Positions 3,581-6,251 of a DNA stretch of 6,251 nucleotides are shown in pieces. Position 1 is the first letter of the stretch. Every line of letters begins with the position of its first letter. The translations under genes were made by a program, and so were the position numbers. The notes beneath the pieces are model-generated. The model saw nothing but the letters and a program-made list of their open reading frames with translations. It was not told the DNA's origin and did not search any database. Source of the DNA: Clostridia bacterium (GTDB lineage: Bacteria; Bacillota; Clostridia; Oscillospirales; CAG-272); NCBI GenBank assembly GCA_017629925.1, contig JAGBWH010000105.1, forward strand, positions 1-6,251. The letters run 5' to 3'.

Positions 3581-4318
3581 ATGAAAGAACTGCAACGCAT
3601 TTTAAGTTTTGCCCGCCGTGCTCTGGTGGACTACGATATGATCAAGCCAGGCGACAAGATTGCGGTGGGGATCTCTGGTGGTAAAGACTCGCTGACCTTG
3701 CTCGCGGCTTTAGCTGCTATGAGACGATTTTATCCCATCCCGTATGAACTATGCGCCATTACCATAGATATGGGCTTTGAGGGGGCAGATTTTTCTGCGA
3801 TAGCCAAATATTGTGAAGCGCTCGACGTGCCTTATCACGTGGTGAAAACTGACATTGCCAAAGTGATTTTCGATATTCGAAAAGAACCCAACCCTTGCTC
3901 GCTCTGCTCGAAAATGAGACGAGGCGCGCTGAATGCCGCCGCCAAAGAGTTTGGATGCCAGTCCGTTGCGCTTGGTCATCATTTTGACGATGCGGTGGTC
4001 ACTTTTATGCTCAATTTATTCCACGAAGGCAGGCTGGGATGCTTCTCTCCCGTCACTTATCTATCTGTCAGCGACCTATATGTCATTCGCCCTTTGCTTT
4101 ACGCCAAGGAAAAAGATATTCGCTATTTTGTGAGCCACGCTGACCTACCTATTCTAACTTCCCCCTGCCCCGAAGATAAACACACAGAACGCGAAACGAT
4201 GACAGAATTACTGATCACACTTGAAAAGCAATTTCCCGGCATCAAGCATCGTATTTATACCGCTATGTGCAAAGGAGAGATTGACGGCTTCAAAACTGTT
4301 TCTCGGTTGCCGGAATAA
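3581..4318 (+). CDS. ttcA: TtcA-like tRNA 2-thiocytidine synthetase (PP-loop ATPase)
   Basis: A PP-loop ATPase of the TtcA/TtuA group, whose E. coli member thiolates cytidine 32 of some tRNAs after adenylating the base. SGGKDS (32-37) is the ATP pyrophosphate-binding PP-loop. CSLC gives Cys106 and Cys109. GHHFDDAVVTFMLNLFHEGRL (132-152) is the family's second signature. Cys196 in SPCPEDK is the third cysteine, matching the three that hold the [4Fe-4S] cluster in E. coli TtcA. At 245 residues it is shorter than E. coli TtcA (about 310), lacking N- and C-terminal extensions but no core motif. The ribosome binding site is weak (AGG at 3570-3572, 8 nt from the ATG). The stop codon directly abuts an 11-bp-stem hairpin, and a strong terminator follows about 210 bp later. 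The family assignment is firm; the exact tRNA target is inferred. Confidence 0.93.
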   Translation: MKELQRILSFARRALVDYDMIKPGDKIAVGISGGKDSLTLLAALAAMRRFYPIPYELCAITIDMGFEGADFSAIAKYCEALDVPYHVVKTDIAKVIFDIRKEPNPCSLCSKMRRGALNAAAKEFGCQSVALGHHFDDAVVTFMLNLFHEGRLGCFSPVTYLSVSDLYVIRPLLYAKEKDIRYFVSHADLPILTSPCPEDKHTERETMTELLITLEKQFPGIKHRIYTAMCKGEIDGFKTVSRLPE

Positions 4319-4343
4319 GCGTGTTCTCCGAGGGAGAACACGC
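4319..4343 (+). other. Perfect 11-bp hairpin abutting the ttcA stop codon
   Basis: GCGTGTTCTCC (4319-4329) and GGAGAACACGC (4333-4343) are exact reverse complements with a GAG loop. The stem begins on the base after TAA. No T-run follows, so it is not a normal intrinsic terminator. It looks like the first, longest member of the hairpin array, because the next bases are A plus the ATGAATT linker. It could protect or process the 3' end of the ttcA mRNA. Confidence 0.8.
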
Positions 4344-4344
4344 A

Positions 4345-4514
4345 ATGAATTGCAACCTTACGGCTGCATGAATTGAAATCATAGATTTCATGAATTGCCT
4401 GCGGCATGAATTGTGCCCCAAGGCACATTGGTTGCCATTCAATTCATGGAGGAGGCGGCACGCCGACGAGAAATCATGGCCAGTCCAATTCATGATGCGT
4501 TAGCATCAATTCAT
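4345..4514. repeat. Hairpin-linker repeat array, block A
   Basis: Direct linkers ATGAATT occur at 4345, 4368, 4390 and 4406, separated by small hairpins. These are GCAACC-TTAC-GGCTGC (4352-4367, one mismatch), GAAATC-ATA-GATTTC (4375-4389), GCC-TGC-GGC (4397-4405) and GTGCC-CCAA-GGCAC (4413-4426). The orientation then flips: AATTCAT occurs at 4441, 4487 and 4508, with GATGC-GTTA-GCATC (4494-4507) between the last two. A 39-bp piece (4448-4486) between the first two inverted linkers fits the scheme only poorly; it holds GGCG-GCA-CGCC and a GAAATCAT relic of the 4375 hairpin. No convincing gene lies here. Confidence 0.88.
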
Positions 4515-4528
4515 TTATCATAACAAAT

Positions 4529-4574
4529 AGAGCAAGAATAGAAGGTTTTTTGTCCTTTTATCCTTGCTCTTTTT
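4529..4574 (+). terminator. Strong intrinsic terminator downstream of ttcA
   Basis: AGAGCAAG (4529-4536) pairs with CTTGCTCT (4563-4570). After one A/C mismatch, ATAGAAGG (4538-4545) pairs with CCTTTTAT (4554-4561) with one G-U pair, closing a TTTTTTGT loop. The stem runs into TTTTT (4570-4574). It points in the ttcA direction, so array block A would be transcribed as the ttcA 3' untranslated region and block B would lie mostly beyond the stop. Confidence 0.88.
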
Positions 4575-4670
4575 GCGCCTTCGGCGCATGAATTGAAATC
4601 ATAGATTTCATGAATTGCCCACGGCATGAATTGCAACCTCGCGGTTGCATGAATTGCGCCTGTCGGCGCA
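4575..4670. repeat. Hairpin-linker repeat array, block B
   Basis: This block starts on the base after the terminator T-run. Hairpins are GCGCC-TTC-GGCGC (4575-4587), GAAATC-ATA-GATTTC (4595-4609), GCC-CAC-GGC (4617-4625), GCAACC-TCGC-GGTTGC (4633-4648) and GCGCC-TGTC-GGCGC (4656-4669). They are joined by exact ATGAATT linkers at 4588, 4610, 4626 and 4649. All four linkers are identical, all hairpins are fully paired, and every hairpin begins with G and ends with C, giving a shared CATGAATTG core. It is cleaner than block A. Confidence 0.9.
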
Positions 4671-4677
4671 TTTTTTT
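4656..4677 (+). terminator. Possible terminator formed by the last array hairpin
   Basis: GCGCC (4656-4660) pairs with GGCGC (4665-4669) around TGTC. An A and seven T's (4671-4677) follow. The stem is short but all G/C, so it may act as a weak intrinsic terminator shielding the downstream promoters. Confidence 0.5.
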
Positions 4678-4861: not shown

Positions 4862-4883
4862 AATGCTTTTTATGATTCTTAAA

Positions 4884-4890
4884 AAGGAGA
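4884..4890 (+). promoter_or_regulatory. Ribosome binding site for the secreted repeat protein
   Basis: AAGGAGA lies 8 nt before ATG 4899, a near-ideal Gram-positive Shine-Dalgarno. It confirms the start of the open frame that runs off the window. Confidence 0.85.
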
Positions 4891-4898
4891 CTACGAAA

Positions 4899-6251
4899 AT
4901 GAATGCAAAAAAATGGCTTAGCATGGTTTTGATACTCTCATTTGTATTAGTGCTCTGTCCCATGCTAACTCCCGTACACGCAGAAGAAGTGTCAGGTGCA
5001 ACACCTGCCGCTGACTCCGCGCCCAATACTCCAAACGAATTTACAGGGGAGGCCGTGACCGATGGCTTCCAAGGCGGTGATGGCACAGCCGAAAATCCTT
5101 ATCAAATCGCCACCCTCGCTCAACTGCAATACTTTGCCAATTATGTCAACGAGGGCAACACTCCCGCAGATGGCGCAATGCAGCATTTTGCTTTGACACA
5201 TGATATTGTTGTCAATGAAAGTTTTACTCAATGGGTTTTTGGCACAAATCCAAGCAAAATTGCCACAGCCGATAACGTCCCCTTCATCGGCACGGAAACC
5301 GCCCCCTTTTACGGGCATTTTGATGGCAACGGCAAGACCATCTTCGGCTATTACAGGAATACCCAACTTGCTAATTCAGGCTTGTTTGGTTGGGGCAAAG
5401 GTGTGATTGAGAATTTGAATATGGATACCCTGTATATGACGACGGGTGCACAATCCTCCGCACTTTTGAGCATAGCCACAGGGGATATCACCATTCGCAA
5501 TTGCAGTGTTACGAATGCCTTTATCCTGAGCAAAGGCACTTGTGGCGGCATTTTGGGATACGGCAATGCAGTAGGTAGTACGATTGTCATTGATGGTTGT
5601 ACCTATCAAGGCAAGATTAATGGTAATCTCAATTATTCCGGTATCGGTGGAATTATGCAAAGCTACATTCATAGCGTGAAGTCTGTTTCGATTACCAATT
5701 GTCACACCAATGCGGATCTTGTTAACTCTCAATGGGACGGTGCCAGTGGTATTCTTCATACCGCCAATTATACCACAGACAACCCGGGTGTGCTTATCAG
5801 CGACTGCACATTTAGAGGTTCCATTCAAAGTGGTTGTTATAAGTCAGTTGGTGGTATTTTGGCCAATGCAAACAATGCCTATAGAATTCCAAACACCTCA
5901 ACAGATGTCAGGAGTGATATAATCATACAAAACTGCGTAAATTATGGTACTTTATATGCCAATGCCCAAGGTGTCGCCGGCGGTATTTGTGCAACGGTCA
6001 GCGGAAAATCTCCCCTCACCGTTGAAAATTGCTATAATTTCGGCACTCTTTCTGCCAACGCTTCAAACTCTTATACTTTGGCTGGCATTGTTGGTGATGC
6101 CTCAGCGAATAGTACTCTGGAAATGGCAAATTGCGCCAATTATGGCGATATCGTAGCCAAAGCCGCCGCCCCAACGCTTGTCGCAGGCGGTCTTATTGGC
6201 AAGCAACAACCCGGATGGCCAAGCGCAAACATTTGCATTTATAACTGCGCC
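4899..6251 (+). CDS. Secreted Cys-repeat (GLUG-like, probable beta-helix) surface protein, 3'-truncated
   Basis: The frame stays open for 451 codons to the last base, so the C-terminus and any anchor lie outside the window. Residues 1-28 form a classical signal peptide: MNAKK, a hydrophobic core (WLSMVLILSFVLVL), then cleavage after VHA before EE. A short Ala/Pro/Thr-rich linker (30-47) precedes GGDGTAENPYQIATLAQLQY (59-78), a segment typical of the start of GLUG-containing and similar right-handed repeat surface proteins. From about residue 197 come eight repeats of 32-43 residues centred on (N/G/D)C at 202, 234, 268, 303, 346, 378, 412 and 450. The best copies read NCxNxGxL/I followed by a GGI motif. 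This pattern suggests one beta-helix coil or two per repeat, displayed outside the cell for adhesion or glycan contact; that role is inferred. It has its own promoters and is probably a single gene or first in an operon. Confidence 0.92.
   Translation, partial: MNAKKWLSMVLILSFVLVLCPMLTPVHAEEVSGATPAADSAPNTPNEFTGEAVTDGFQGGDGTAENPYQIATLAQLQYFANYVNEGNTPADGAMQHFALTHDIVVNESFTQWVFGTNPSKIATADNVPFIGTETAPFYGHFDGNGKTIFGYYRNTQLANSGLFGWGKGVIENLNMDTLYMTTGAQSSALLSIATGDITIRNCSVTNAFILSKGTCGGILGYGNAVGSTIVIDGCTYQGKINGNLNYSGIGGIMQSYIHSVKSVSITNCHTNADLVNSQWDGASGILHTANYTTDNPGVLISDCTFRGSIQSGCYKSVGGILANANNAYRIPNTSTDVRSDIIIQNCVNYGTLYANAQGVAGGICATVSGKSPLTVENCYNFGTLSANASNSYTLAGIVGDASANSTLEMANCANYGDIVAKAAAPTLVAGGLIGKQQPGWPSANICIYNCA
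5487..6251 (+). repeat. Eight protein-level repeats with an Asn-Cys core
   Basis: The repeat cores are IRNCSV, IDGCTY, ITNCHT, ISDCTF, IQNCVNYG, VENCYNFG, MANCANYG and IYNC, each (except the cut last one) followed 14-25 residues later by a glycine-rich GGI, SGI or AGI motif. They are degenerate at DNA level, so they are old repeats rather than recent tandem copies. Later copies (from 346) are more alike than earlier ones. The array continues past the window. Confidence 0.8.

Follow-up and report, generated by a model that had tools for sequence, protein, structure and literature searches.

What kind of object strings hairpins with changing arms on a nearly fixed 7-bp linker, and what maintains it, is the question that this locus raises. 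In the window, by which we mean the whole 6,251-nucleotide stretch analysed, a sequence-only reading had counted 11 copies of ATGAATT, eight direct and three inverted, joining paired hairpins, and all 11 were recovered, at 4345-4655. The whole window holds 13, as opposed to 1.95 expected from 200 dinucleotide shuffles of the window (largest shuffle count, 5); the claimed enrichment stands, while the guess of about one expected copy does not. The arms GCAACC, GAAATC, GCC, GTGCC, GATGC and GCGCC are likewise present with complementary partners, one bead (4352-4367) containing an A.C mismatch.

The linkers and hairpins were described as a single array, but they belong to two elements, at 4319-4570 and 4575-4677 (Table 1). 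The first runs in the order end hairpin, four direct linkers with hairpins, short centre, a bead with tandem G.A mismatches, inverted linkers with hairpins, and terminator-like hairpin, the inverted linkers being part of its right half. Counted by hand, its linkers number 4+4, three AATTCAT and one AAATCAT making up the right side. A spacer A separates the left end hairpin (4319-4343) from the first direct linker (4345), and an AT-rich stretch lies between the last inverted linker (ending at 4514) and the right end hairpin. The bead types of the second element are common to contigs C77 and C241. On the minus strand, open frames cross the arrays at 4290-4493 and give pseudo-peptides (MNWTGHDFSSACRLLHEL..) that could be annotated as hypothetical proteins; such frames recur as an ORF cluster among the copies. 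Further along the window, 4863-6251 is a secreted-looking ORF, of which 4899-6251 has no Pfam match at E 0.001.

Table 1. Positions of the two elements and the host gene in the window
Feature	Positions	Strand	Basis or remark
Host gene, PP-loop ATPase family	3581..4318	+	Pfam PF01171; first element begins behind its stop codon
Left end hairpin GCGTGTTCTCC-GAG-GGAGAACACGC	4319..4343	+	Sequence; copies align from about here; directly behind the PP-loop gene stop
Left array: linkers at 4345, 4368, 4390 and 4406 with hairpins GCAACC, GAAATC, GCC and GTGCC	4345..4426	+	Sequence, pairing, covariation
Centre ATTGGTTGCCATTC; the matching place holds a PF05635 gene in relatives L086 and L098	4427..4440	+	Copy alignment
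Inverted linker 4441-4447, conserved bead GGA..GAG with tandem G.A mismatches 4448-4470, variant linker AAATCAT 4471-4477	4441..4477	+	
Right array: hairpin 4478-4486, linker 4487-4493, hairpin GATGC..GCATC 4494-4507, linker 4508-4514	4478..4514	+	
Right end hairpin AGAGCAAG..CTTGCTCT, then Ts, terminator-like	4529..4574	+	Copy alignment
Second element: GCGCC hairpin, then GAAATC, GCC, GCAACC and GCGCC hairpins on four direct linkers, then T-run	4575..4677	+	

Pooled over loci, with coding repeats left in, there are 317 distinct inter-linker segments, of which 233 are fully Watson-Crick paired with a loop of at most 6 nt, as against a mean of 6.8 (maximum 19) when shuffled and 46.4 (maximum 63) when arms are swapped between segments. 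The tendency of the hairpins to begin with G and end with C, also noted before, holds throughout this pool (296/317 and 305/317, respectively). In 23 elements chosen for alignment over the whole core, a named structure of five hairpins and four linker duplexes comprises 53 pairs; 95.1% of the cells are paired and both partners have changed in 11 of the pairs, neither value being attained in any of 500 shuffles. Sliding the partner by 1-3 columns lowers pairing to 28-38%, a comparison that favours the named structure in that it was drawn from the window sequence. All 11 double changes fall in hairpins, and the linkers hardly vary. At the level of aligned sequence, the arm changes in the hairpins are compensatory, and the earlier proposal that selection or a copying mechanism acts on structure is upheld, pairing and linker being kept while the arms change.

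These same data bear on the view that the locus is a binding-site array for a DNA-binding protein (a nucleoid protein or regulator), the arms merely spacing the linkers. A nearly fixed linker between changing arms is what such an array would show, but its arms need not stay complementary, and yet 11 pairs have changed on both sides; nor would one expect the same layout to occur, as it does, with other linkers. We regard this explanation as highly improbable.

Predicted RNA folds of 4319-4514 pair left linkers with right linkers, at z -4.73 on the plus strand and -5.43 on the minus strand. Exactly 4+4 linkers were counted in 27 of the 50 GGA..GAG-bead elements that were parsed, although the window copy, with AAATCAT inside its second hairpin, was missed by the parser; on folding, 104 of 198 left linkers of parsed elements pair with a right linker. 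In linker duplex 3, one base pair is non-standard in 18/23 sequences (in the window, A.A). Within the GGA..GAG bead the inner stem varies, with at least two closing pairs in 13/25 distinct forms as opposed to a shuffled mean of 2.1 (maximum 7). Covariation between paired linkers of the ATGAATT family is uninformative (2 A.C cells, 1.7 expected by shuffling), and against the folded form that we favour below it must be said that covariation supports the hairpins, while ATGAATT linker-linker pairing comes without compensatory changes. As for the strand, A-to-G changes facing T occur in 18/114 linker cells as opposed to the 2 A.C cells, an excess that would fit a plus-strand RNA. The loops of the left half, read outward from the centre, point the opposite way, with GNA or GNNA in 39/129 triloops and 35/81 tetraloops (4 and 2 on the other strand). 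Single mismatches in stems, on the outward strand, are too few to decide (16 G.T, 9 A.C, 12 other).

The pattern is by no means limited to one locus, the outcome that the sequence-only reading had named as telling against it: linker-hairpin-linker matches 42 times on 14 contigs of the own genome, whereas the pattern read backwards, used as control, matches 0 times. Nine copies of the first element retain the left end, the window's included, and the other eight are 75-94% identical to the window copy; two further copies are cut by contig starts, and there are shorter fragments. The copies thus occur at different places in the own genome, with different flanks. In the copy on C30 the right end hairpin is inverted, and the right end hairpin part alone is matched on C23, C6, C94 and C156. 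Among relatives the ATGAATT pattern is present in 39/98 genomes (reversed control, 1 match), including 33/60 of the genus; at class level it is found in 25/291 genomes and 21/181 genera (reversed control, 5 matches), at least two of the 25 genomes, G112 and G267, looking like chance matches without a hairpin. A scan of titled genome contigs returned 89 loci, 58 of which contain three or more clustered linkers; by eye, 11 of the 58 are coding or tandem repeats, and most of the remainder belong to MAGs of Clostridia and Oscillospiraceae, with rumen and gut as frequent sources. One relative's contig (L198:2005-2379) holds two element copies in direct tandem, the second reaching the contig end. 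Carriage by plasmid or phage was rejected, a 352 bp query finding no match in two plasmid and phage collections.

Comparison with catalogued repeats left the earlier exclusions intact. The arrays are not CRISPR, the inter-linker segments not being unique spacers of fixed length between fixed repeats, and an Rfam search gave no match above the gathering score (best, 21 bits vs 70.7). Nor are they plain REP, being dispersed non-coding repeats in which linker and structure are kept as the arms change, with no GTAG or CGTC tag. In the portion of PMC3733652 used here, which treats the GTAG and CGTC families, REP/BIME elements with RAYT resemble the arrays as short intergenic palindromes, several per locus; they differ in that the arrays have no tag tetranucleotide at the bead foot and set different arms on a fixed linker.

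A REP/BIME-like repeat moved by a RAYT transposase was nonetheless considered in its own right. Contig C56 of the own genome encodes a RAYT-like protein (L122:4691-5209; NCBIfam NF047646, 78 bits vs a cut-off of 80), and a relative or fragment occurs in 5/6 genomes with at least 15 pattern matches (Fisher p 0.002, the threshold having been chosen after seeing the data). Against this, RAYT has no overall association with arrays (Mann-Whitney p 0.39), PF01797 is present in 8/33 array genomes vs 10/27 others, and the beads are bordered by ATGAATT in place of a GTAG or CGTC tag. Only one of 19 RAYT loci, the fragment locus L338, has an array cluster, so that the RAYT partner proposed earlier is not borne out; we consider this reading improbable. 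A GTAG-type palindrome, GCGGGAGGATGATATCCTCCCCTACG, lies behind four first-element copies (L131, L130, L129 and L126, on own contigs C215, C210, C178 and C114), and GTAG-like hairpins were seen by eye near RAYT genes in L326, L327 and L330. A canonical IS200/IS605 transposase was also rejected, having no association with the arrays.

The left end of the first element lies within 12 nt of an ORF stop codon in 7/9 copies, at 1, 2, 2, 1, 7 and 6 nt behind the ORF end or 12 nt inside it, counting ORFs of at least 90 codons that read toward the element; the C178 and C121 copies are the exceptions. This placement, together with the terminator-like right end and the many among 70 listed arrays that stand behind an ORF reading toward them, is what one would expect of a 3'-UTR element, that is, a structured RNA that ends or protects transcripts, is inherited with genes and kept for that use, its dispersal reflecting old duplication. 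Inheritance with the gene is, however, opposed by the PP-loop orthologues in the genus. Matches occur in 57 other genomes, and the 29 loci retrieved from these show no ATGAATT array behind the gene, two of them (L240 and L250) having less than 80 nt of downstream sequence; at 65-74% protein identity these orthologues are diverged, and there is no clean empty site among them. Behind one orthologue, in L253, a similarly arranged array uses the linker GTGAAGTT. Two further observations, set out below, speak against the 3'-UTR explanation, namely that some copies enclose or adjoin a PF05635 gene and that a single place at rlmD is used by six linker families. Taken together, we think it unlikely.

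Clustering of ORFs near 123 linker clusters led to PF05635, the 23S rRNA intervening-sequence protein (IVP), a four-helix bundle (Pfam E 2e-22 to 4e-26; NCBIfam TIGR02436); the sole solved chain found to match is 2rld (E 7e-29). Neither this partner nor the layout as whole elements with left and right halves figured in the sequence-only reading. Of 96 ATGAATT array loci, counted after removal of 8 coding-repeat loci, 7 have a PF05635 gene inside or within 100 bp, where a density of 2.5 genes per genome in the genus predicts about 0.24, an approximate value because the loci are not independent. The gene occupies the centre of the element in L086 and L098, flanked by left and right arrays, and gene-less copies in the MAG of L086 carry the arms GAACGC, GATTTGC, GCAACC and GACAGC just as L086 does; in L103 and L108 it lies between a right-type and a left-type array. 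Within the class sample, PF05635 is present in 14/20 genomes with the pattern vs 49/176 without it (p 3e-4), the six lacking it including the own genome, and G167, G265 and G267 being counted as sampled and lacking because unlisted. In the genus it is found in 52/60 genomes, and IVP count follows array count per genome weakly (Spearman 0.25, p 0.05; 0.31, p 0.02 without the own genome). Arrays and PF05635 are thus linked, although the preferred explanation must accommodate a gene near only 7/96 ATGAATT array loci and no match in the own genome, which is 66% complete.

The link extends to arrays built on other linkers. In a sample of 30 genus IVP loci, the best match of each of 30 genomes, with L262 dropped for having no placed match, 19/29 loci have a 7-mer repeated four or more times upstream of the gene, vs 1/90 control windows (Fisher 7e-14); flanks of the PP-loop gene show such recurrence in 2/29 downstream (one being L253) and 0/29 upstream. 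These repeat arrays have the layout of the ATGAATT arrays with mostly different linkers, which by eye are AGTGATAT, GTGAAGT, ATGAAGC, AATGATGT, AGTTATAT, AGTTATGAT and ATGAAAT, and the other halves of the arrays, also by eye, carry the reverse complement of the linker. Class-wide, 30 IVP loci add the linker AGCTAAAT; a repeat lies upstream in 8 and on either side in 10, as opposed to 4/118 controls (upstream p 3e-4), and that only 10/30 have such a flank counts against the preferred explanation. Some IVP genes are flanked by AT-rich inverted repeats in place of linker arrays. Such repeats, e.g., AATGCAAAATGC, AAAGTTGAAAATT and AATGAATAATG, lie near PF05635 genes in L263, L265, L266, L271-L273, L275, L277 and L282, L263 having an ATATCAC array upstream of its gene as well.

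One place where these elements insert is at rlmD, a gene named from its C-terminal motif, which we take to encode the 23S rRNA uracil methyltransferase. It was found in 54/60 genus genomes, and 33 of the 52 3' ends inspected are followed by arrays of six linker families (by commonest 7-mer: AATTCAT 11, ACTTCAC 11, ATATCGC 4, ATATCGA 4, CGTGATA 2, AATGATG 1), all lying just behind the codons HVE(S/T)VVCL or variants; the own genome's site is empty (HVESVVCLTRK*). The rlmD 3' end is therefore one insertion place common to six linker families. As far as the fetched stretches reach, a same-strand PF05635 gene follows the array in 23/33 filled sites vs 0/19 others (p 3e-7), these others including L421, for which there is no sequence, L385 and L397, with partial arrays at contig ends, and L392, with a hairpin only. 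In 21/23 the gene lies within 400 nt, G017 and G047 having it at 906 and 1369 nt. The first bases of the element form an inverted repeat with the last codons of the host rlmD, the element-side arm beginning 19-31 nt past the first base of the H codon at 27/33 sites with a placed inverted repeat of at least 8 nt. This inverted repeat measures 12-18 nt in 10/33 filled sites and at most 11 nt in the 19 others (Mann-Whitney on scores, 2e-6). We prefer this comparison of filled with unfilled sites because a test of own arm vs other hosts is partly circular, the arms having been chosen by match to their own gene.

The closest analogue of these arrays is the intervening sequence (IVS) of 23S rRNA. 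In the portion of PMC4990558 used here, the Coxiella IVS has an S23p/PF05635 ORF and complementary ends forming a 28-bp stem, and its origin and mobility are called unclear. Like the 23S rRNA IVSs with an S23p/IVP ORF (Coxiella, Leptospira, others), some relatives of the window arrays have a PF05635 ORF, the window copy having none. A stem of complementary ends with the ORF inside or next to it may be a second parallel: left and right linkers are reverse complementary and pair in the predicted folds, and the ORF is central in L086 and L098, as in rRNA IVSs, but elsewhere lies outside. Unlike IVSs, the arrays stand behind mRNA genes and tRNAs (in relatives, rlmD and, read by eye, guaA-like and tRNA-adjacent sites), the window copy lying between the PP-loop gene and the secreted-looking ORF; the array stem would consist of 7-bp linker steps interrupted by hairpins; and many copies are gene-less. 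Since the defining rRNA location is lacking, we say that the family works like an IVS, not that it is one.

Two further comparisons are instructive. Miniature inverted-repeat elements (MITEs) are dispersed gene-less copies beside a gene-bearing form, and the arrays share this property; they differ in having no transposase family found and no established target duplication, and in consisting of inverted arrays instead of simple terminal repeats. Insertion behind terminator-like hairpins, in sense orientation, is a trait that the arrays share with group IIC introns, but the maturase family GIIM is confined to 2/60 genus genomes, G008 and G009, which lack the ATGAATT pattern, and group II intron machinery was rejected as the mover.

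In our view the window likely contains two gene-less copies of a dispersed family of hairpin arrays, the fuller copies of which carry a PF05635 gene; the element probably inserts as one unit at gene 3' ends and would adopt a branched-stem fold. The window copies are, in other words, probably gene-less members of an IVS-like, mobile element family. Left-half linkers would pair with right-half linkers in 7-bp steps, the hairpins projecting at four-way junctions, and copies with a PF05635 gene would have it in the loop or immediately downstream. Transcription of the upstream gene would continue through the element, and PF05635 protein may bind the hairpins; the resulting ribonucleoprotein would be what moves or is protected, and gene-less copies such as those of the window would be moved in trans. 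Of the options listed from the letters alone, a mobile repeat moved in trans thus survives as an inferred reading, while RAYT as its mover is not supported. Besides the want of a clean empty site noted above, two further points weigh against our preferred explanation. Among the gene families examined near arrays and across genus genomes, no transposase or recombinase is tied to the arrays, and boundaries aligned by eye show no consistent target duplication; moreover, the PF05635 gene is central in some copies and outside in others, standing behind the array at rlmD.

A bolder and quite tentative proposal is that the arrays may represent a new class of bacterial mobile element, a protein-coated tree built of RNA, in which family-specific linker duplexes and four-way junctions make up a ladder-like stem. 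The intervening-sequence protein would take the place of a transposase; the element would home to the last rlmD codons in six linker families, copy the host gene's end into its first hairpin and seed gene-less passengers. rRNA intervening sequences were discovered in 1990, and 25 years later their origin and function were still called unclear in the part of that source used here (PMC4990558); we found no paper whose title or abstract describes the link between the arrays and PF05635. Because the arrays share this protein, occur many times per genome, come with and without the gene and have a common insertion place, they would make these questions testable, and they would account for a large class of hairpin repeats in gut Clostridia for which our searches returned neither a matching Rfam family nor a paper.

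Some minor observations concern element ends. Those of L214, L216 and L218 share CAGCC, possibly by chance. In L278 and L291, AGTTATGAT-linker arrays stand behind a gene ending GTIEWE, presumably guaA-like, and in L278 the end hairpin extends into the coding sequence.
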